Source of the DNA: Dyadobacter sp. Leaf189
Lineage (GTDB): Bacteria > Bacteroidota > Bacteroidia > Cytophagales > Spirosomataceae
Assembly: GCF_001424405.1 (NCBI RefSeq)
Contig: NZ_LMPS01000005.1
Coordinates: 310,001 to 374,000 of the forward strand
DNA: 64,000 nt
Direction of reading: 5' to 3'
This document shows positions 1 through 11,490 of the stretch, piece after piece (position 1 is the first letter of the stretch; every line of letters begins with the position of its first letter). The position numbers were made by a program, and so were the translations under genes. The notes under the pieces are model-generated. The model was not told where the DNA came from. It worked only from the letters and a program-made list of their open reading frames with translations, and made no database searches.

Positions 1-500
1 CTTACCGGCTGGACCGCAACAAGAAAATCCTGATCATTAACATCTCCAAAGAGATTGACAATTTCAACTACCAAAAAATAGAGGAAGGTTTCAGAGGCTA
101 CTTTGCCGACCGTGGACAGCCTATGGAGATTGTCAGGATTGATATCCGGGAAACCGACTACCAGTCCGTCGCCAGGCACCTTACCTATGTTTTTCATTTG
201 AATAAAGATATAGGCGCTGCATTCGTGACCAATTCACGCGTGCATACGGTCGCTTCTTTCCTGAAAAACAGTCACCGCACGCATGTATCGCTGATCGGCT
301 TTGATTTTGTGACGGAAAATGTATCCTATCTTGAAAACAATGTCATCGATTTCCTGATCTGCCACCGCCCCGAAGAGCAGGGGTATCGGGGTATTATGGC
401 CCTTTATCAGAAACTGGTTGTCAATGCGCCTGTGAGCAAGCTGAGCTATATGCCCATTGACATCGTTACCAAGGAAAACTACGAGTTTTACCAGAATTAG
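1..500 (+). CDS. LacI-family transcriptional regulator, 3' part
   Basis: The reading frame is open from base 3 and runs off the left edge, so only the C-terminal ~165 residues are present. They look like the periplasmic-binding-protein-like effector domain of LacI/GalR regulators: the segment 'FLICHRPEEQGYRG' and the final strand/helix order match the end of that domain in Bacteroidota members. The DNA-binding helix-turn-helix lies outside the window. The gene sits just upstream of, and in the same direction as, a carbohydrate locus, and a perfect palindrome of the LacI operator kind lies between it and the next gene. It is therefore the obvious candidate regulator of that locus; this is inferred from position. 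An internal ATG at 123 is not the true start. Confidence 0.8.
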   Translation, partial: YRLDRNKKILIINISKEIDNFNYQKIEEGFRGYFADRGQPMEIVRIDIRETDYQSVARHLTYVFHLNKDIGAAFVTNSRVHTVASFLKNSHRTHVSLIGFDFVTENVSYLENNVIDFLICHRPEEQGYRGIMALYQKLVVNAPVSKLSYMPIDIVTKENYEFYQN

Positions 501-619: not shown

Positions 620-645
620 TATCTTTACGGGCACGTGCCCGTAAA
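620..645. promoter_or_regulatory. Perfect 22-bp palindromic operator overlapping a -7-like box
   Basis: Bases 624-645 form a perfect palindrome with half-site TTTACGGGCAC. A TATCTTTA box (620-627), one base from the Bacteroidota -7 consensus TAnnTTTG, overlaps its left edge, so a bound repressor would block transcription. A related site lies at 5564-5583. Binding by the adjacent LacI-type regulator is inferred. Confidence 0.65.
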
Positions 646-698: not shown

Positions 699-1925
699 AT
701 GATGAAAGAACAAACCCTCAGGTGGCTCAAATCACTAGGCCCGGGAATGATCACTGCCGCATTGGTTTTCGGACCGAGCAAGATGACCATTACTTCGAAG
801 CTCGGCGCGGTTTACGGCTATTCCCTTTTATGGATCGTCGTGGTGGCAATCCTGTTCATGGCAGTATTCACCGCCATGTCGACCCGCATCGGGGTGGCTA
901 CCAATCAGTCTTTGCTGGCTTCGGTAAAGCATAAGTGGGGCAATGCGGCCTCCGTAGCAATGGGCCTGGGTGTTTTTCTGGTAGCCACTTCGTTTCAGGC
1001 GGGCAATTCGATCGGACTGGGTATTGCGCTGGGCGAGCTGTATGATACTTCACCGGTACCCTGGATCATTGTCTTCAATGGATTAGGCATCGGCCTGTTG
1101 TTCTTCCGAAGCTTTTATTCCGTTCTGGAACGGACCATGATCCTCCTGATCTTCTTAATGCTTTTTTCGTTTATTACGACACTGTTCTGGGCTGATCCTG
1201 ATCCTGTTAAGATCGTAAAAGGCTTTACAACACCCGTGATCCCGGAAGGTTCGCAGGGTTTGATCATTGCCTTTATGGCGTCCTGCTTTTCCATCGTGGG
1301 CGCCTTATACCAGTCGTACCTGATACAGGAAAGAATCCGTATCAATCCTGCATTGCGCAATGCCAGAAACGATAGTTCTACCGGGATTATCCTGTTGGGA
1401 GTGATGTGCAGCATTGTGATCATCTGCGCCGCAGCGATCCTGAACCCGAAAGGCATTGCAGTGAACTCGGCTTCGGATATGGCCAAGGCGCTGGAACCGA
1501 TTTTTGGTGAAAATGCGTCGACGGTATTTCTGGTGGGTTTGTTTGGTGCGGCGTTTTCGTCGCTGATCGGAAATGCTTCAGTGGGCGGGACTTTGTTAGG
1601 TGATGCACTTGGGCTGGGAAGTAATTTCAGTTCAAAGTCAGTACGTTACCTGGTTGCATTGGTCATGATCGTCGGAGCATTCATTGCGATCCGCTTCGGA
1701 AAGCTGCCGCTGGAACTCATCGTTTTTGCACAGAGCGTTACCATTTTCGTGGTTCCGTTCATAGGTACTGCCATTTATATGGTCGGCAATGACAGCAAGA
1801 TCATGGGCGACAAGGTCAATAGTCCGCTGGTAAAAGTTGTGGCAGGGATCGGCCTGCTGGTGATTTTCGGACTGGCGATCATCAATTCGAAAGAACTATT
1901 CTTTAATAATCCGCTTTTCAAATAA
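699..1925 (+). CDS. Nramp-like (LeuT-fold) transporter lacking canonical metal-binding motifs
   Basis: This is a 408-residue, strongly hydrophobic protein with about eleven membrane segments. The start 'SLGPGMITAALVFGPSKMT' aligns with Nramp TM1 (GPGFL..IGYMDPGN). The metal-binding DPGN is replaced by GPSK here, and the TM6 MPH motif is replaced by a GALYQ-type sequence near residue 200. Nramp proteins are inner-membrane proton-coupled Mn/Fe transporters, but the lost ligands argue against ordinary divalent metal transport. The gene leads an operon-like run of sugar-oxidation genes; the SDR follows 6 bp after its stop. It may have been repurposed to import an organic solute, perhaps a sugar acid (inference). 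The family is fairly secure; the substrate is unknown. It would usually be annotated as a divalent metal cation transporter. Confidence 0.8.
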   Translation: MMKEQTLRWLKSLGPGMITAALVFGPSKMTITSKLGAVYGYSLLWIVVVAILFMAVFTAMSTRIGVATNQSLLASVKHKWGNAASVAMGLGVFLVATSFQAGNSIGLGIALGELYDTSPVPWIIVFNGLGIGLLFFRSFYSVLERTMILLIFLMLFSFITTLFWADPDPVKIVKGFTTPVIPEGSQGLIIAFMASCFSIVGALYQSYLIQERIRINPALRNARNDSSTGIILLGVMCSIVIICAAAILNPKGIAVNSASDMAKALEPIFGENASTVFLVGLFGAAFSSLIGNASVGGTLLGDALGLGSNFSSKSVRYLVALVMIVGAFIAIRFGKLPLELIVFAQSVTIFVVPFIGTAIYMVGNDSKIMGDKVNSPLVKVVAGIGLLVIFGLAIINSKELFFNNPLFK

Positions 1926-1931
1926 CCTTTT

Positions 1932-2948
1932 ATGATTGACATCGCTTCACTGGAAGAAAAATGGCTGAGCCCGTCAGAGGCATTGATCGAGGATATCAAG
2001 CGCATCGACGGCGACATCATGGTGCTGGGTGCAGGAGGCAAAATCGGTCCGAGCATTTGCAGGCTCGCGAAACAGGCGATAGAACGCGCCGGTCTCGACA
2101 AGCGTGTGGTGGCAGTATCGCGTTTCAGCGAACCCGGCCTGGCCGCAGAACTGAATGCAGAGGGTATTGACACCATTTCTGCCAATATCCTGGATGATAC
2201 CCAGTTGCACGACCTCCCTGAAATCGAAAATGTCCTTTATCTGGCTGGTACCAAGTTTGGTACGTCTAACAACGAGCCTTATACCTGGGCCATGAACACC
2301 TACCTGCCTGGCCGTGTGGCTGAGAAGTTCCGCAGATCGCGCATTGTGGTGTATTCAACGGGCAATGTATATCCGTTTACGCCGGTGAACTCGGGTGGCG
2401 CTACCGAGGAGGTGCGTGCAAATCCGGTAGGAGAGTATGGACAGTCGTGTCTCGGCCGCGAGCGGTTATTCCAATACTTTTCATCCGTTTACGGTACACC
2501 GCTTTTGATCTACCGCCTTAACTACGCCATTGATTTCCGGTACGGCGTATTGCTTGAAATCGCCAAATCGGTACTGAATGGAAAGCCGATCGATGTAAGT
2601 ATGGGGCACGTGAATGTGATCTGGCAGGGCGACGCCAACGAAATGGCGATCCGTTCGCTGCTGCATTGTGAAGCGCCGGCGAAGCTTTTGAACATTACCG
2701 GACCGGAGACGGTTTCGCTCCGCTGGCTGGCTATGGAATTCGGACGTATATTCAATACCGAACCGACATTTTTGGGCGAGGAACAGTCCACTGCACTGCT
2801 GAGCAACGCTGCGGAATCATTCCGTTTATTCGGCTATCCGCGCACCACATTGAAAGAGATGATCGGCATTACTGCGCAGTGGCTTTTGGAAGGTGGCAAG
2901 ACCATCAATAAGCCCACCCATTTCCAGGAAAGAAAAGGACAGTTTTAG
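1932..2948 (+). CDS. NAD-dependent epimerase/dehydratase family protein (extended SDR), atypical active site
   Basis: This 338-residue protein has a Rossmann nucleotide-binding start, 'MVLGAGGKIGPSI' around residue 34. It also has the SDR 'YSTGNVYPF' strand carrying the Ser/Thr region and a catalytic-type Tyr169 in 'EYGQSCLGRE'. The YxxxK lysine expected at 173 is Cys. Extended SDRs act on sugars or sugar nucleotides in the cytoplasm. The gene is packed between the Nramp-like gene (6 bp) and the DHDPS-family gene (41 bp), so it probably handles an intermediate of the same pathway. The substrate cannot be read from sequence, and the missing lysine may mean altered chemistry or a binding-only role. 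Confidence 0.8.
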   Translation: MIDIASLEEKWLSPSEALIEDIKRIDGDIMVLGAGGKIGPSICRLAKQAIERAGLDKRVVAVSRFSEPGLAAELNAEGIDTISANILDDTQLHDLPEIENVLYLAGTKFGTSNNEPYTWAMNTYLPGRVAEKFRRSRIVVYSTGNVYPFTPVNSGGATEEVRANPVGEYGQSCLGRERLFQYFSSVYGTPLLIYRLNYAIDFRYGVLLEIAKSVLNGKPIDVSMGHVNVIWQGDANEMAIRSLLHCEAPAKLLNITGPETVSLRWLAMEFGRIFNTEPTFLGEEQSTALLSNAAESFRLFGYPRTTLKEMIGITAQWLLEGGKTINKPTHFQERKGQF

Positions 2949-2989: not shown

Positions 2990-4051
2990 ATGTTGAACGA
3001 ACAGAAGAAAAAGCTGCTGTTTGAAGGAACGGTTATTCCGGCACACCCACTTGCATTGACACGTGAGCTTCAACTGGATGAGACCAGGCAGCGCGGATTG
3101 ACGCGGTATTACATGGCCAGTGGCGCGGGTGGAGTGGCGATCGGCGTGCACACGACGCAGTTCGAGATCCGTGATCCGGAGATCAATTTGTTTGAAAAAG
3201 TACTTGCGATGACGGCGGAAGAAATCGACAAGGCAGCGCTGGACAGACCATTTATCAAAGTGGCAGGGATTTGTGGTAAAACGGAGCAGGCGCTCAAAGA
3301 AGCGGACATCGCCATTCAATACGGCTACGATCTCGGACTCGTGAGCATGGCCGCATTCCGGACAGAGCCTGAGGATGAAATTATTGCACATGTAAAAAAG
3401 GTGGCTGAGAAGATTCCGGTGTTCGGGTTTTACCTGCAGGTAGCAGTCGGAGGCCGGGTTTTCAGCTACGAATTCTGGCAGAAATTTGCGGAGATACCGA
3501 ATGTGACTGCGATCAAAGTAGCTGCATTTAACCGGTACCAGACACTGGACGTGGTACGCGCGGTCGCCTGCTCTTCGAGGAAAGATGAGATTGCATTGTA
3601 TACCGGAAATGACGATAATATCGTGGCCGACCTGCTGACGCCGTTTGTGTTTGATGTGAATGGAGAGAAGGTAGAAAAACGGTTTGTAGGTGGTTTGCTC
3701 GGCCATTATGCTGTTTGGACAGAAAGATCAGTGCAGTTATTGGCAGATATTAAAACAGCCATAAACGGTACCAAAGAAGATATTGAAAAACTGCTCAGTG
3801 CCAATGTGGAGGTGACCGATATGAATGCCGCAATTTTCGACCCGGCGCACAACTTTCACGGCTGCATTACCGGTGTTCACGAAGTGCTCAGAAGGCAGGG
3901 GCTAATGGAAGGAATATGGACATTGAACCCCAAAGAAGACCTTTCACCAGGTCAGGCCGAGGAAATTACAAGGGTTACCGAGGCTTATCCGCATTTGGTG
4001 GACGATGAATTTGTAAGTGCATTTTTGGAGAAGGAAGTCAATCTGATCTAG
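2990..4051 (+). CDS. Dihydrodipicolinate synthase/N-acetylneuraminate lyase family protein
   Basis: This 353-residue protein belongs to the class I aldolase (TIM-barrel) family. The glycine-rich early motif 'ASGAGGVAIGVHTTQ' occupies the place of the GTTGE loop. The 'FGFYLQ' Tyr fits the family catalytic tyrosine, and 'TAIKVAAFNRY' carries the Schiff-base lysine, Lys176. It is longer than biosynthetic DapA (about 290 residues), with an added C-terminal segment. Position in a sugar-uptake and oxidation operon fits a catabolic aldolase or dehydratase acting on a 2-keto-3-deoxy sugar acid rather than lysine synthesis; this is inference. The next gene starts one base after its stop, so the two are probably co-translated. 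Confidence 0.85.
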   Translation: MLNEQKKKLLFEGTVIPAHPLALTRELQLDETRQRGLTRYYMASGAGGVAIGVHTTQFEIRDPEINLFEKVLAMTAEEIDKAALDRPFIKVAGICGKTEQALKEADIAIQYGYDLGLVSMAAFRTEPEDEIIAHVKKVAEKIPVFGFYLQVAVGGRVFSYEFWQKFAEIPNVTAIKVAAFNRYQTLDVVRAVACSSRKDEIALYTGNDDNIVADLLTPFVFDVNGEKVEKRFVGGLLGHYAVWTERSVQLLADIKTAINGTKEDIEKLLSANVEVTDMNAAIFDPAHNFHGCITGVHEVLRRQGLMEGIWTLNPKEDLSPGQAEEITRVTEAYPHLVDDEFVSAFLEKEVNLI

Positions 4052-4052
4052 T

Positions 4053-5549
4053 ATGACATTGGTGTATCGGTTAGCAGCAGGATTGATCCTGGCGGGCATG
4101 TGGCATTTCAGGGACAGTCAAAACGTACCGCAGCAGCGGGATGCATTTGTCGATACTCCATTGAAGGTTACTACCGTAGCTTCCGGTTTGAATGTGCCCT
4201 GGGAAATGAGCTGGGGACCTGACGATCAGCTTTGGCTGACGGAACAAAGCGGCACAATCAGCAAAGTGGATCCGAAAACAGGTGCGAAAACGCTGCTTTT
4301 GAAAATTGATGAAGTGTACCGGTATCGCTCGCTGGGATTGCTCGGAATGGCGATCCACCCCGATTTCAAGCACAAACCGTTTGTGTTCGTTGATTATATG
4401 TGTAAAAAGGATTCGCTGATTACAACGAAGCTGGTCCGGTTTACCTATAAAAACAATAAGCTAACCGATCCGAAAACGCTGCTTGAAATTCCGGCGCATA
4501 CCGGCCACAATGGATCCAGAATTGTTTTTGCACCCGATGGAAAACTGATGTTTGCGACCGGGGATGCGATCACGATCACCAATGCACAGAACACAAAGTC
4601 GCTGAATGGGAAGGTTTTGCGCATGAACATCGACGGTACTGCACCAGCAGATAATCCCATCAAAGGAAGCCTGGTATGGTCGTGGGGACACCGCAATATC
4701 CAGGGGCTGGTTTACGGGGTAAACGGAATGCTGTACGCCTCAGAACACGGCGACGCGCTGGAAGACGAGCTGAATATCATTCAGAAAGGCGGCAATTATG
4801 GCTGGCCCAAAGTAGAAGGTTTCTGTGATCAGCCTGCCGAGAAGCAGTTTTGTGATTCGGTTAAAGTCACTGAACCTGTAAAAGCCTGGACACCGACGAT
4901 TGCACCGGCAGGAATTGCTTTTTACAATAAAAGCCTGTTCCCGGAATGGAAGAATGCCATTTTGCTTACAACCTTAAAAGAAAGCGATCTGCGCATTCTC
5001 AAACTGGATAAAACGGGTAAAAAGATCGAATCGGAAACCATTGTACTGGACGCACAGTATGGCAGGCTGCGGGACATTTGTGTAGCTCCCGATGGCAGTA
5101 TCTATGTTTCCACAAGCAATCGCGACTGGAACCCGGCAACGGGATTTCCCAAGCCTGCAGACGATCAGATCCTGCGGATCACGCCCGGCATGAAGGGAGA
5201 TCCTGCACCGCAAACAGCCGCATTGCCCGAGGTACCCCAGGGACAGCGGCTGTATAATCAGTATTGCGCCTCTTGCCACAAACAAAATGGGGAAGGAGTA
5301 GCCGAGGTATTTCCTCCGCTAAAAGGAACCGGGCAGGTTAAGGATAAGGAGCAGCTTATCCATATCATGCTCAACGGACTTTCGGGCAAAATAGAAGTGA
5401 ATGGGAAATCTTACGACCAGCACATGCCCGCTATGTCATTTTTGACCGATGATGCGCTTGCAGGTATTGCAACCTATGTACGACAAAGCTTTGGCAACCA
5501 GCTTAGTGCAGTTTCCGGGAGTGAAGTCAAGACCGTGAGGTCCCGGTAA
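4053..5549 (+). CDS. PQQ-dependent soluble sugar dehydrogenase fused to a cytochrome c domain
   Basis: This 498-residue protein has a hydrophobic N-terminus (residues 1-18) that could act as a signal peptide. It is followed by a six-bladed propeller of the soluble glucose/aldose dehydrogenase family: 'GLNVPWEMSWGPDDQLWLTE', 'LGLLGMAIHPDF', 'HNGSRIVFAPDGKL' with the family His, and 'GHRNIQGL'. A C-terminal cytochrome c domain starts near residue 395 and has a CASCH haem-attachment motif (Cys405, Cys408, His409), with a likely Met ligand in 'HMPAMSFL'. The family oxidises aldoses to lactones in the periplasm; the fused haem would pass electrons to the respiratory chain. Its place between cytoplasmic enzymes and SusCD suggests oxidation of an imported sugar before it crosses the inner membrane. 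Confidence 0.88.
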   Translation: MTLVYRLAAGLILAGMWHFRDSQNVPQQRDAFVDTPLKVTTVASGLNVPWEMSWGPDDQLWLTEQSGTISKVDPKTGAKTLLLKIDEVYRYRSLGLLGMAIHPDFKHKPFVFVDYMCKKDSLITTKLVRFTYKNNKLTDPKTLLEIPAHTGHNGSRIVFAPDGKLMFATGDAITITNAQNTKSLNGKVLRMNIDGTAPADNPIKGSLVWSWGHRNIQGLVYGVNGMLYASEHGDALEDELNIIQKGGNYGWPKVEGFCDQPAEKQFCDSVKVTEPVKAWTPTIAPAGIAFYNKSLFPEWKNAILLTTLKESDLRILKLDKTGKKIESETIVLDAQYGRLRDICVAPDGSIYVSTSNRDWNPATGFPKPADDQILRITPGMKGDPAPQTAALPEVPQGQRLYNQYCASCHKQNGEGVAEVFPPLKGTGQVKDKEQLIHIMLNGLSGKIEVNGKSYDQHMPAMSFLTDDALAGIATYVRQSFGNQLSAVSGSEVKTVRSR

Positions 5550-5619: not shown

Positions 5620-8600
5620 ATGAACAGATTGAAATTCTACAAAAAATGGACATTGCCGCAATTGAAATTGCCTGTCTTTTTGCTGGCGATGCTCCTGAGC
5701 GTCACCGGCTATGCGCAAAATGCCGGAGAGGTTTCCGGTATTGTTGTCGATAGTGTCGGCAATGTATCGCTGCCCGGTGTGAGCGTTGTGATCAAAGGCA
5801 CAAGCAAAGGGGTTACCACCGATGCGGATGGTAAGTACCGGATACAGGCAGGCGCGGGCGATGTGCTCACATTCTCGTTTATTGGCTATGAGAAAAACGA
5901 AGTGCCGGTAGGAAGCAAATCGGTTATCAATGTGACAATGCGCCAGAACAATACGGTTTTGGATGAACTCGTGGTAGTGGGTTACGGAGCTGTAAAGAAG
6001 AGCTCTGTCACGGCAGCAGTATCCAAAGTAGAAAACACCGTGCTCGACCAGATCCCCGTGGGCAGGCCTGAATCCGTGCTGGCAGGGCGACTTGCGGGTG
6101 TAAATGTTTCACAAACAAATACTTCGCCGGGCAGCGCGCCATTGATCAGGATCCGCGGAGCAAGCTCCATTGACGCAGGTAACGATCCGTTGGTGGTGAT
6201 CGACGGATTTCCGGGCGGTAGTCTGGGGAGCATCAGTACCAATGATATCGAGTCCATTGAAGTGTTGAAAGATGCCTCGGCGGCGGCGATTTACGGATCA
6301 CGCGGTGCAGGCGGGGTGATTATTGTCACGACCAAAAAAGGAAAATCAGGTAAAGCGAAATTCAATTTCAATGCATACGCAGGTGTCGCGAGTCCGAAAA
6401 AGCATGGCGACTGGCTGGTAGGGCAGGAGTACTACGATTATGCGGTACGCTACCAAAACAGGGAATACACCTGGATAGGCGGAGATCCTACTTTGCCCGT
6501 TTGGAACGACCCGCGCAGGCCCAATGCATACCAGGTGAGTGATGTTTTGAAAAACGGAAACAATGTGGTTTGGGAAGATGAGGTACTTGGCAGCGCCATG
6601 GTACAGAACTACAACCTGTCGGTAGGTGGTGGAACGGACCATGTGCGTTACTATGTGTCGGGTACGCTGAAAGATGAACAGGGAACTTTGAAAAACACCT
6701 GGTACAAAAACTACGGCGTGCGCGCCAATGTGGATGTGACCGTCAACTCGGTGGTGAGCCTGGGCTTTATGCTGAACCCTTCGTATTCCAAGCGTCGATT
6801 TGCTTCGACCGACATTAATAACTATATCAAGTTTCCAAGCTTTGTAGCGGTCCAGAATCCGGACGGTACTTATCCCAATTCCCGCTCTTACTGGGGCGCA
6901 GTGGTAAGCGGACAGGCCAATCCGATGGCGACACTGGAAGGTTCGCATTACTACGGAACCACGGTCAATAACCTGGGAGAAGCGTTCTTGAACCTGAACC
7001 TGGCGAAAGGACTCTCATTACGCTCGTCGATCAGTACCAACCTGGCTTCCAACCAGACAGACCGTTTCCAGGCTTCCTGGGCGCAAAGCACCAACCTTAA
7101 CTCGGGTTCGCTGGCGCAGAGCAACAGTTATAGCATCGCGAACGAAAACGTGTTGAGTTACAGCGCTACTTTCAAGGATGTGCACACATTAAGCGCAATC
7201 GCGGGTGCATCTTACCAGAAATTCAACTCGAATGCGTCAAATATGGCGGCGGTGAACGGATCGTTTAATAACGACATTATCCGCACGCTCAATAATGCGA
7301 TCATCAATCCTTCCGCGACGAATTCCACACGGTCGCAGTGGGGCCTGATCTCGTATTTCAGCCGCGTGAATTATGGTTTCAAAGACAAATACCTGCTATC
7401 TGCCTCGATCCGTACAGACGGCAGCTCGCGTTTCGGACCGGATAACAAATGGGGCTATTTCCCATCTGCTTCGGTAGCGTGGCGCGTGTCGCAGGAGGAA
7501 TTTATGAAGCGTATTTCGGCTGTCAGTGAACTGAAACTGCGTGCCAGCTACGGCGCGACGGGTAACTTCAACATCGGTGATTTTGAATACCTCGGGCAGA
7601 TCGGCGACGTGTATTATGCGCCAAATAACACCCTTACCAAAGGCCAGACGCAGGTTTCTTATGGTAACAACAGTCTGAGCTGGGAAAAAACGTCGAGCTA
7701 CGACGTGGGTCTTGAGTTAGGTTTGTTCAGAAACCGCATTAGTCTTGTCCTGGATTATTACGATAAGAAAACCAATGGTCTGCTTTACAATGTCTCCATC
7801 CCTTCCATTACCGGTTTTACAAGTTCTTTGTCCAATGTAGGAACCGTGCGTAACAAGGGTTTTGAAATTGAACTGACTACCAAAAACCTGACGGGTGCAT
7901 TCAAATGGGAAACTTCGTTCAATATGGCGAAGAATGTCAATACCGTGGAAGACCTCGGCGGCGTGCAGGAACGCATTACAACAGACACTTACGGAATGGG
8001 CTGGATCCTGCGTCTTGGCCAGCCGATGTTCTCTTACTTTGGCTACAAGGTAATTGGCGTGCTGCAAAACCAGGAAGAGGTGAACAATTCGCCAGTACTG
8101 TCAGGCTCCAAGCCGGGTAATCCCAAGTACCAGGATGTAGACGGCGACGGTAAGATCACTTCGGCCGACAAGGTGATTCTCGGTAATTTCCAACCCAAAG
8201 CCTATTTCGGTCTGATCAACAATTTTGCGTGGAAGAGCTTTGACCTGAGCATTGCCATGCAAGCTTCGGTAGGTGCCAAGATCTACAATTTTGAAAATGA
8301 ATATTACGAAGGTGCATTGCTGGGTGCTATGAGAAGGCCGCTGGTGGAGAGACAATGGTGGTCGCAAACGGAGACAGGAAATGGTATCACACCGGGCAGC
8401 TCGCTGAGCCAGCTTACCTACCAGTCTTCCTCCTCTGCCTACATTGAAGACGCCTCTTTCCTGGCTGTCAGGAACATCAATTTGGGCTATACCCTGCCGC
8501 TCGACCTGGTACAAAAAGCGCATCTGTCCAATTTCAGGATCTACGCTTCGCTGGCTAATCCATTCATGTTCACCAAAAAAGGATTTCACGGCTACAATCC

Positions 8601-8712
8601 CGAAGGATATACAAATGGTGAAATTGCGGGAACGGGCAGCAAGCCGGGTTTCAACAATGGAGCAGCGCCAATCAACCGGGTGTACACGCTGGGTATCAAC
8701 TTTAATTTTTAA
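5620..8712 (+). CDS. SusC/RagA-family TonB-linked outer membrane transporter
   Basis: This 1030-residue protein starts with a signal peptide (hydrophobic run ~18-31, cleavage near 'GYAQN'). A carboxypeptidase-regulatory-like domain follows (~38-115, 'VSLPGVSVVIKGTSKG'), then the TonB-box/plug start 'DELVVVGYGAVKKSSVT', plug motifs 'IRIRGASSI' and 'DPLVVIDGFPGG', and a long beta-barrel ending 'YTLGINFNF'. SusC proteins import oligosaccharides through the outer membrane with a SusD lid. There is no STN domain, so control is not by FecR/ECF, in keeping with the LacI-type operator upstream. The susD gene follows after 12 bp. The substrate is not readable, though the neighbours point to an oxidisable sugar or uronate-type glycan. 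Confidence 0.93.
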   Translation: MNRLKFYKKWTLPQLKLPVFLLAMLLSVTGYAQNAGEVSGIVVDSVGNVSLPGVSVVIKGTSKGVTTDADGKYRIQAGAGDVLTFSFIGYEKNEVPVGSKSVINVTMRQNNTVLDELVVVGYGAVKKSSVTAAVSKVENTVLDQIPVGRPESVLAGRLAGVNVSQTNTSPGSAPLIRIRGASSIDAGNDPLVVIDGFPGGSLGSISTNDIESIEVLKDASAAAIYGSRGAGGVIIVTTKKGKSGKAKFNFNAYAGVASPKKHGDWLVGQEYYDYAVRYQNREYTWIGGDPTLPVWNDPRRPNAYQVSDVLKNGNNVVWEDEVLGSAMVQNYNLSVGGGTDHVRYYVSGTLKDEQGTLKNTWYKNYGVRANVDVTVNSVVSLGFMLNPSYSKRRFASTDINNYIKFPSFVAVQNPDGTYPNSRSYWGAVVSGQANPMATLEGSHYYGTTVNNLGEAFLNLNLAKGLSLRSSISTNLASNQTDRFQASWAQSTNLNSGSLAQSNSYSIANENVLSYSATFKDVHTLSAIAGASYQKFNSNASNMAAVNGSFNNDIIRTLNNAIINPSATNSTRSQWGLISYFSRVNYGFKDKYLLSASIRTDGSSRFGPDNKWGYFPSASVAWRVSQEEFMKRISAVSELKLRASYGATGNFNIGDFEYLGQIGDVYYAPNNTLTKGQTQVSYGNNSLSWEKTSSYDVGLELGLFRNRISLVLDYYDKKTNGLLYNVSIPSITGFTSSLSNVGTVRNKGFEIELTTKNLTGAFKWETSFNMAKNVNTVEDLGGVQERITTDTYGMGWILRLGQPMFSYFGYKVIGVLQNQEEVNNSPVLSGSKPGNPKYQDVDGDGKITSADKVILGNFQPKAYFGLINNFAWKSFDLSIAMQASVGAKIYNFENEYYEGALLGAMRRPLVERQWWSQTETGNGITPGSSLSQLTYQSSSSAYIEDASFLAVRNINLGYTLPLDLVQKAHLSNFRIYASLANPFMFTKKGFHGYNPEGYTNGEIAGTGSKPGFNNGAAPINRVYTLGINFNF

Positions 8713-8724
8713 ACTGAACCGACC

Positions 8725-10185
8725 ATGCAAATCAGAAATAACCTCATCAAATGCTTTGCCGCGCTGGCATTGGGATTGGCCGGCTGCGAAGACAAGCTAC
8801 TTAACCCGACGCCCGAATCGGTACTGACAGCCAATAACTTTTACAAGACTGCCAACGATATCAACCAGGCGGTACTTGGGATTTACAACAATCTGCAAAC
8901 CCGCCGCTCGTCCGATTACCTGCTCATGGAAGTGCCGAGCGACAACCTGTATATGTCGACCAACACAACCATTGCCGGCTCCAACGACGTCGATTTCCTG
9001 ACATTGAACTCGGATAATGCATTGACAGCCGCGTTCTGGAACACGACTTACAACGGGATCTTCCGCGCAAACTCGGTATTGATGAATATCGACAACCCTA
9101 CGAATTATGCGGCGGGTGCCAAAGACCAGTACATCGGCGAAGCCAAGTTCATGCGCGCGCTGTACTACTTTGATCTGGTGCGTATTTTCGGCGGAGTACC
9201 CAAGGTGACCGAGAAAATCTCGATCCCCGAAGCGGCTGCATTGCCGAAAGCGAGCGAAGAAGAAATTTACGCACAGATTATCGCTGATCTGACAGACGCT
9301 GCAGCGAAATTGCCCTTGCGAAATGCGATTGCGACAGGGCGCGCGAGCAGGGGAGCGGCGGTAGGTTTGCTCGGCAAAGTGTATGTGTACCGGAAAGATT
9401 ATGCCAATGCAAAAACGCAGTTTGAGAAGCTGATCAAGGATTTTGATTATGCATTGGTGAACGATTTTGCCTCGCTCTGGCAGCTTGCGACCGAGGACAA
9501 CAGCGAAGTGCTTTTTACGGTAAAATACATTGACGGTACAAACGGACACAGCTTATCGACCAACTACGCACCGAATGGAGGGATCGTAGGCGTGACCGAC
9601 CGCGGTGCCGAAACGTCGCTGCCTTCGTGGAGCCTGATGAAGAAATATGAGGAAGGAGACAAGCGCAAAGCGGCTACGATTCAGGAATGGTGGGTGTCGC
9701 CCGCACAGCCCAACGCGCCGGCGATCTGGTATCCTTATGTGAGCAAATATGCCGTGAAGCATTCCTATGGTGCTTCCGGGATCGATATTCCGGTGTTGCG
9801 GTTTGCAGATGTAGTGCTTCTTTACGCCGAAACGCTCAATGCGCTGGGCGATAAAGCGGGTGCATTGACCCAGCTTAACCGCGTGCGCCAGCGTGCATTC
9901 GGCAATGCAACGCACAATTACAAAGGCACCGAAGCAGCAGACTTGATGGACCTGATCCTGCTGGAACGCCAGCTGGAACTGGCTTACGAGCACGAGCGCT
10001 GGTTTGACCTGGTACGCACCGGCAAATTCACCACGGTGATGAAGCAGGAAGAAAGGCTGTACAACTATGCTTCCAAAAGTCCGGTTGTGGTGAATCTCGC
10101 CCCGCAAGCCTATATGAGCGTATATCCGATCCCGCAGGCGCAGATCGATTTGTCGTCGGGTTTAAAACAAAATAACGGATACTAG
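8725..10185 (+). CDS. SusD/RagB-family surface glycan-binding lipoprotein
   Basis: This 486-residue protein has a lipoprotein signal 'LALGLAGC' (lipidated Cys about 21), then 'LNPTPESVLTANNFYKTANDI', typical of mature SusD starts. A TPR-like helical core is marked by 'EAKFMRALYYFDLVRIFGGVP' and 'RFADVVLLYAETLNALGD'. The C-terminal RagB/SusD region contains 'LLERQLELAYEHERWFDLVRTGKF'. It would sit on the cell surface as the lid of the SusC barrel encoded 12 bp upstream. It is followed by a strong intrinsic terminator, so it is the last gene of the main operon. Confidence 0.93.
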   Translation: MQIRNNLIKCFAALALGLAGCEDKLLNPTPESVLTANNFYKTANDINQAVLGIYNNLQTRRSSDYLLMEVPSDNLYMSTNTTIAGSNDVDFLTLNSDNALTAAFWNTTYNGIFRANSVLMNIDNPTNYAAGAKDQYIGEAKFMRALYYFDLVRIFGGVPKVTEKISIPEAAALPKASEEEIYAQIIADLTDAAAKLPLRNAIATGRASRGAAVGLLGKVYVYRKDYANAKTQFEKLIKDFDYALVNDFASLWQLATEDNSEVLFTVKYIDGTNGHSLSTNYAPNGGIVGVTDRGAETSLPSWSLMKKYEEGDKRKAATIQEWWVSPAQPNAPAIWYPYVSKYAVKHSYGASGIDIPVLRFADVVLLYAETLNALGDKAGALTQLNRVRQRAFGNATHNYKGTEAADLMDLILLERQLELAYEHERWFDLVRTGKFTTVMKQEERLYNYASKSPVVVNLAPQAYMSVYPIPQAQIDLSSGLKQNNGY

Positions 10186-10302: not shown

Positions 10303-11490
10303 TTGAAATATTCATTCACTATCGCACTCAGCTTACTTCTTGTTCAATGTGTTTTCGGGCAAAAGGATATGACCAAAATGCTGCAAAATGGCATTGACAA
10401 AGCAGCTAAAAACGGCACAAACCGCTATGAGATCCCCGCAGGGCATTACCTTATTTCTGCGCCGCTGCTGATTCCCTCCAACTTCACATTGGTAGCGGAT
10501 CAGAAAGCGTATATCGAACTGAAAAAATCCTGCAATCAGTACCTGCTGCGAAACAGGGATATTGTGAACGGAAACGAGAATATCAAAGTACTGGGCGGCA
10601 AATGGAATGGAAATGCATTTACGCAAACACGCACGATCCGGGACAAGGTCGAAAACTCTGATTTCTGTTTCGGAATGTTTTTTTACAAGGTCAAAAACCT
10701 GGAAGTGGGCAGCATGCAGATCGATAGCACGCGCAGCTGGGGCATTGCTTATATGGAATGCGACGATGTGCATGTACACGATGTGCGCTTCCAACAAAAT
10801 CCTTTCCGGGACAGTAAACATACCAGTGCATTGACCCACAATGGCGACGGCGTGACCGGCGGAGGCAACAATGTACTGATCGAAAATATCTCAGGATTCA
10901 CCAATGACGACCTGATTGCATTCGCTTCTGGCGGCGCCAGCTTTCAGGGTAAGATGTCGCCTTTCCCGGCGCGGGATTACAGCAATGTAACGGTCAGGAA
11001 TATCTTTCCGGAGATGATCTACGATTCTATTCCGTCTTTGAAAGGTGTCGCATTTTATACATTTGAAAACACGCGCGTATCCAATGTCGTCATTGAAAAT
11101 GTAAAGGGAAATACCGCCATGGCGTCTGTGCTGTTTTACAGTTTGTTTGATAAAAAAGGAAGTTTTTCAAATGTGAAGATCTCGAATGTAGAAGGTACCA
11201 ATGTGTACAGTCGCGCGAGCCAACGCAACTTACCCCAGACCTATGCGGTACTGGCATTCAAGAATTCAGATTTCGACAAGCTGACGATCAGCAATGTAAA
11301 GCGTATTGAAAAGCGGTATTCGAACTCCACTTTTGGTTTTGATAAGGAAACGTCGGTGCAAAACCTGGAAATCAGGGACGTGAAGATTACCCATACCGGT
11401 TTTCGCGGCGAAATGTTCCTGAGCGCATCGCAGGCGGGTTTAGGCAATATTTCTATTTCCGGTATTGAAGTGGAGCGATCGGATTTGTAA
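10303..11490 (+). CDS. Secreted right-handed parallel beta-helix protein, GH28/pectate-lyase-like
   Basis: This 395-residue protein starts at a TTG codon. That start supplies a clear signal peptide (MKYSFTIALSLLLVQCVFGQ), and no in-frame ATG precedes it. The fold is a parallel beta-helix: repeated short strands such as 'NIKVLGGKWNGN', 'LEVGSMQID', 'NVLIENISG', 'NVTVRNI' and 'NVVIENV'. 'DGVTGGGNN...FTNDDLIAFAS' resembles the polygalacturonase NTD and DD motifs, but the GHG/RIK motifs of GH28 were not found, so catalysis is uncertain. It lies after the SusD terminator and probably belongs functionally to the same glycan locus as a periplasmic or surface depolymerase. An alternative is a non-catalytic beta-helix. 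Confidence 0.75.
   Translation: MKYSFTIALSLLLVQCVFGQKDMTKMLQNGIDKAAKNGTNRYEIPAGHYLISAPLLIPSNFTLVADQKAYIELKKSCNQYLLRNRDIVNGNENIKVLGGKWNGNAFTQTRTIRDKVENSDFCFGMFFYKVKNLEVGSMQIDSTRSWGIAYMECDDVHVHDVRFQQNPFRDSKHTSALTHNGDGVTGGGNNVLIENISGFTNDDLIAFASGGASFQGKMSPFPARDYSNVTVRNIFPEMIYDSIPSLKGVAFYTFENTRVSNVVIENVKGNTAMASVLFYSLFDKKGSFSNVKISNVEGTNVYSRASQRNLPQTYAVLAFKNSDFDKLTISNVKRIEKRYSNSTFGFDKETSVQNLEIRDVKITHTGFRGEMFLSASQAGLGNISISGIEVERSDL

Follow-up and report, generated by a model that had tools for sequence, protein, structure and literature searches.

Metal carriers of the Nramp-related families carry the signatures DxxN-A/CxxM (NRAMP), DxxG-TxxA/T (NRMT) and DxxN-AxxT (NRAT) (PMC8806188). Nramp-related proteins that are free of the metal ligands are reported to be paraphyletic to the canonical Nramps, in which the metal site evolved (PMC12873925), and an Nramp 'outgroup' without DPGN and MPH has already been described (PMC9606685, PMC4072509); the absence of these motifs alone is not new. 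There is a real dispute over what such ligand-free proteins carry, since Corynebacterium glutamicum needs PxpT to grow on 5-oxoproline (PMC13274462), whereas the Bacillus subtilis homologue of this protein, YcsG, is claimed to import Mn (PMC10448178) and a rise in cellular Mn is reported for MumT of Acinetobacter baumannii (PMC5050338). Here we describe a further ligand-free Nramp-fold transporter, for which PxpT is the nearest functional precedent. It is encoded in a 64,000-nucleotide stretch of the Dyadobacter sp. Leaf189 genome, the whole of which we refer to as the window.

The transporter is a full-length protein of 408 aa with the Nramp (PF01566, LeuT) fold and matches the Nramp profile at 4.1e-65 (220.6 bits against a curated cut-off of 29.8). 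Site residues were mapped by alignment with DraNramp (8e6i chain), EleNRMT and BfraNramp. As had been read from the DNA beforehand, TM1 carries GPSK in place of DPGN: the motif falls exactly on DPGN and is gap-free in the alignment with the solved Nramps, with DraNramp D56, P57, G58 and N59 corresponding to G25, P26, S27 and K28, and it is present in all 80 loci that we compared (73 directly and seven with slightly different flanks). The reported lack of MPH in TM6 was borne out as well, because M230, P231 and H232 align with S198, I199 and V200, while A227 aligns with S195. Q378, matched by Q345, is the sole side-chain metal ligand of DraNramp that is kept. In the same alignment, the proton-path positions D131, E134, E124, R353 and R352 are occupied by Q100, N103, F93, S314 and K313, and H237 is replaced by glutamine. 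Among 43 orthologues G25, P26, S27, K28, S195, S198, V200, Q205 and Q345 are invariant, and in the cores of TM1, 3, 6, 8 and 10 no charged residue other than Lys28 is conserved. We searched the same cores for ligands that might have been retained elsewhere in the pocket and found no acidic residue conserved in at least 70% of the orthologues. The AlphaFold model of the transporter (pLDDT 83, pTM 0.84) breaks TM1 at residues 24-25 and TM6 at residues 197-198, which is where the Nramp site lies, and superimposes on Nramp and NRMT structures with Z scores of 35-47, the next APC folds reaching about 30. Profile and model thus agree on a PF01566 protein that has the LeuT fold, is interrupted in TM1 and TM6 and most closely resembles the Nramps. 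The alignment of GPSK on DPGN, its invariance, the lack of a conserved acid, the helix breaks and the fold match together confirm the altered site, and chance or sequencing error is excluded as the origin of the motif.

Table 1. Features of the transporter locus, with coordinates counted from the first nucleotide of the window
Feature	Coordinates	Strand	Basis
LacI-family regulator, C-terminal part	3..500	+	Peripla_BP_4
Perfect 22-bp palindrome, probable LacI-family operator	624..645	.	unique, conserved
Nramp-fold transporter, GxxK / SxxS replacing the metal site	699..1925	+	PF01566, ligand map, AlphaFold model
SDR/epimerase-like protein of the conserved module	1932..2948	+	PF01370 5.7e-8
DHDPS/NAL-fold class I aldolase	2990..4051	+	model, fold matches, Schiff-base lysine K176
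Glucose/sorbosone-type PQQ dehydrogenase fused to cytochrome c	4053..5549	+	PF07995 2.4e-82
SusC-type TonB-dependent outer-membrane transporter	5620..8712	+	Plug and TonB barrel
SusD-type surface glycan-binding lipoprotein	8725..10185	+	PF07980 / PF14322
Pectate-lyase-like / GH28-type protein	10303..11490	+	PF12708 and PF00295, both weak

With GxxK-SxxS at its site, the transporter fails the NRAMP, NRMT and NRAT signatures alike. In a tree of 41 rows, which was rebuilt after leaving out three very long rows, the GPSK proteins form one clade (100/99) nested in a lineage that also holds GPGS and GPGN proteins, haloarchaeal and rhizobial members included (100/99). This lineage stands apart from the canonical Nramps, from the NRMT magnesium transporters and from the GPGT group of PxpT and YcsG. 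As far as the open-access literature shows, the GPSK clade is a separate and undescribed variant, and our search of that literature returned nothing relevant on Nramp proteins linked to sugar-acid operons. The original prediction had spoken of a change of substrate class. The tree gives no support to the word 'change': it favours no one branching order of the four groups, with AU p = 0.30 for a grouping of the transporter lineage with the canonical Nramps, so that the ligands may have been lost or may never have been present.

Comparison with the individual relatives places the transporter more precisely. It shares with the canonical Nramp/MntH proteins of SLC11 (DraNramp and the clade B protein BfraNramp) the fold, at Z of about 38-47 and 18-23% identity, but has neither DxxN-A/CxxM nor the proton-path residues. 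EleNRMT is its top match by Foldseek and by profile, and both proteins are without the methionine and most of the proton-path residues; NRMT, however, keeps the TM1 aspartate (DxxG-TxxA/T, PMC8806188), and EleNRMT and the transporter fall into separate clades supported at 100/99 each. PxpT and YcsG resemble it in combining the Nramp fold with a catabolic operon, the pxp-linked relatives aligned here likewise have glycine for the TM1 aspartate, and for PxpT growth genetics point to an organic acid, 5-oxoproline (PMC13274462). Nevertheless, this group belongs to another clade and has GPGT, VPY and a TM3 glutamate where the transporter has GPSK, SIV and glutamine. The genes pxpA/pxpB adjoin the Nramp gene in 21 of 31 loci of a set that is nearly all GPGT-type, whereas pxpABC was found near GPSK genes in 0 of 80 loci. 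MumT, too, is a divergent Nramp-family protein within a catabolic operon (PMC5050338), but it is linked to urea carboxylase and to the reported Mn effect; it was compared by its published description. The haloarchaeal GPGS proteins encoded with Gfo/Idh/MocA genes belong to the same clade and share the TM6 pattern FSI, but carry serine at the position of Lys28, and their plasmids gave no match to the aldolase in a search that had no positive control.

Several other arrangements of Nramp genes came to light during this survey. The Leaf189 genome itself holds a third PF01566 paralogue (L183:7557-8750, minus strand; TM1 SAVGPGFLTQ) beside a gene for an 1110-aa fused hydantoinase A/B (oxoprolinase) protein (L183:8789-12118, minus strand), another case of a ligand-free Nramp with a catabolic partner. 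Plasmids of Haloferax and Haloarcula (L156, L157) carry a GPGT-type Nramp gene followed by nearly overlapping hyuA-hyuB, and a Bacteroidota locus (L042:8827-12391) has Nramp, pxpA, pxpB and pxpC in a single run, the PxpT arrangement. A very divergent Nramp-like protein of 575 aa (SGPGWLQSAL) is encoded between Gfo/Idh genes at L176:11837-13561, close to a GPGS-type Nramp gene, and a Ketogulonicigenium plasmid (L160) has an Nramp type with GVGAADL in TM1 alongside LacI, amino-acid ABC and sugar-kinase genes.

The genes that travel with the transporter were identified by comparing 80 loci from genera of Cytophagales, Sphingobacteriales and Chitinophagales. The SDR-like gene accompanies it in 79 loci (cluster 1), with a median gap of 18 bp between the two, and the gene of the DHDPS-fold aldolase in 75 (cluster 2). 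Transporter and aldolase occur in an identical set of 17 of the 291 genomes of the order and of 6 of its 116 genera; were genera independent, an assumption that holds only partly, the two genus sets would coincide by chance with a naive probability of about 3e-10. Among 48 Dyadobacter genomes the transporter is present in 35, the SDR-like gene in 35 and the aldolase in 34, the single mismatch being an 81% complete genome with a contig ending at that point, and the remaining 13 genomes have none of the three. In Dyadobacter G022 the transporter (L185) is unlinked from the SDR/aldolase pair (L181), yet all are kept, and L146 is a further case in which the transporter and its partners are retained together without linkage. 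Mirror-tree correlations of the transporter are 0.77-0.80 with the module genes and 0.72 with GSDH/SusC, values that are too close to tell co-evolution from shared descent. A search for loci in which another transporter had taken its place brought up genome G227: there one contig carries the SDR/aldolase pair by itself, with a different PQQ dehydrogenase in the position of the usual one, and the sole transporter gene belonging to the clade is found on a separate contig. The split module of G461 (SDR, aldolase and SusC in two pieces) looks like the product of sequencing frameshifts and was set aside.

Both partner enzymes are remote from characterised ones. The Schiff-base lysine of the aldolase, K176, is invariant, and its model (pLDDT 91) matches DHDPS folds at Z 32-33, with NAL and 4-hydroxy-2-oxoglutarate aldolase among the Foldseek matches. 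In at least 97% of the rows the SDR-like protein has YGQSC in place of the customary YxxxK, which makes its chemistry unsure; with an invariant cysteine at the position expected for the catalytic lysine it is possibly an unusual enzyme. Neither the Schiff-base aldolase family nor the SDR family is known to depend on a metal.

Upstream of the transporter, the window begins within a LacI-family gene that is a complete ORF of 352 aa in its own genome (L034:4442-5497), and the LacI helix-turn-helix is found in a full-length orthologue; a LacI-family gene is present in 26 of the 80 loci. Between this gene and the transporter gene lies the palindrome TTTACGGGCACGTGCCCGTAAA, whose chance expectation in the window is 0.01. 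When up to two mismatches are allowed, its 16-bp core occurs nowhere else in the 6.07 Mb genome. In Dyadobacter the palindrome stands upstream of the transporter gene in 16 loci, and the LacI gene is adjacent in 14 of these; in this genus the transporter gene is the first to follow it. We regard the palindrome as the probable operator through which the LacI-family regulator would control the transporter operon. A search of the upstream region against Rfam matched no RNA family, metal riboswitches such as the M-box included. Leaf189 also has a canonical MntH gene of the DPGN type, which serves as an internal control and lies divergent to a gene for a DtxR/MntR-type regulator.

The sugar-operon location that had been claimed for the gene was upheld. 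The PQQ aldose dehydrogenase is an accessory member found in 38 of the 80 loci, as is SusC (cluster 4; 38 loci), with SusD (cluster 5) in 34. The pectate-lyase-like gene, the true start of which may be the ATG at 10369, would belong to the same operon as judged from gene order and strand. Other neighbours among the 80 loci include enolase-like (20), BNR_4 (15), M20 (13) and GH20 (9) genes, and a NagP-like MFS or an SSF transporter is encoded in or near 14 and 6 loci, respectively. In G022 the transporter gene stands between LacI and Gfo/Idh genes and SusCD, GH20 and sulfatase genes, surroundings that hint at sulfated amino-sugar glycans. A GPGN relative in Neorhizobium is arranged as LacI, DHDPS-family gene and Nramp, and its plasmid gave no match to the aldolase of the window in a search run without a positive control; this seems to be another partnership between proteins of these types.

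From the residues of the site, the linkage and co-occurrence of the module, the operator-like palindrome and the properties of the partner enzymes we infer that the transporter likely imports a small organic molecule derived from a sugar, probably an anion and most likely a sugar acid, that is passed to the aldolase. SusC/SusD would bring a glycan fragment into the periplasm, where hydrolases and, in about half of the loci, the PQQ aldose dehydrogenase could turn it into a sugar or an aldonate. The Nramp-fold protein would then move the acid across the inner membrane via the site at the TM1 and TM6 breaks, and Lys28, which occupies the position of the metal ligand Asn59, may neutralise the carboxylate of the substrate and would be repulsive to divalent cations. 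Presumably encoded with the transporter in one LacI-controlled operon, the SDR-like protein and the aldolase would cleave the product to pyruvate and an aldehyde. This chemistry is a guess, given that neither enzyme is closely related to a characterised one and the SDR-like protein is without the catalytic lysine. Lys28 is not essential to the partnership within the module, since GPGS orthologues in G214 and G218 carry serine in its place within the same module. The suggestion of the original prediction that the substrate might be an organic anion is thus plausible and now much better, if partly, supported: the strict linkage to the aldolase, the LacI-type operator, the lack of an acidic ligand and the invariant lysine make a non-metal, probably organic-anion substrate the best supported reading of the sequences.

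A transporter of this descent could instead still carry a divalent cation, Mn or Mg, through a rebuilt site and supply the metal to the enzymes of the operon. Its membership of PF01566 and the retained Q345 are consistent with such a role, the GPGT relatives YcsG and MumT are reported Mn importers (PMC10448178, PMC5050338), and EcoDMT tolerates the conversion of several ligands to NRMT residues (PMC8806188). The signatures of the characterised SLC11 metal carriers nevertheless all keep the TM1 aspartate (DxxN and DxxG in PMC8806188), whereas here glycine stands in its place, followed three residues on by an invariant lysine, in a core with no conserved acid; a divalent metal at such a site is unlikely. 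The conserved partners, moreover, are a Schiff-base aldolase and an SDR-like protein, the regulator is of the LacI type, no Rfam family matched upstream of the transporter gene, and the genome already has a canonical MntH, so we regard metal supply as improbable.

The substrate could also be a neutral sugar or amino sugar, as a mono- or small oligosaccharide, given the SusCD, GH20, NagP-like MFS, NagA/NagB-like and Gfo/Idh neighbours and the Gfo/Idh genes next to the haloarchaeal GPGS relatives. Lys28, the PQQ dehydrogenase and an aldolase whose family is one of 2-keto-acid enzymes speak for an acid, however, and the NagP-like MFS beside the transporter in 14 loci would already serve GlcNAc, which leaves a neutral substrate with a small chance. 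As import itself is read from the gene context and second transporters do occur occasionally in the locus, the protein might conversely export a toxic intermediate or product of the pathway, such as a short aldehyde or acid. This is very improbable, because in 74 of the 80 loci no protein of the run other than the transporter has at least six predicted TM segments, so that a second polytopic protein that could act as importer is missing, and because in Dyadobacter no gene stands between the palindrome and the transporter gene. Import of a sugar-derived acid is the reading we prefer. Extending it, we tentatively propose, on rather less secure ground, that the GPSK/GPGS/GPGN branch of bacteria and archaea may carry carbohydrate-derived organic acids and no metals, and that in Bacteroidota the invariant lysine, standing where the metal used to be held, may serve as a built-in cation and bind the carboxylate of a substrate feeding an undescribed aldolase pathway.

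These genes are annotated as 'Nramp family divalent metal transporter', and through this annotation a wrong metal function spreads in the databases. YcsG and PxpT are the subject of a dispute over whether ligand-free Nramps move metals or organic acids, and with its lysine site and its strict aldolase partner the GPSK clade offers a cleaner test case. The clade would also bear on the origin of the metal site within the APC/LeuT fold of amino-acid transporters.
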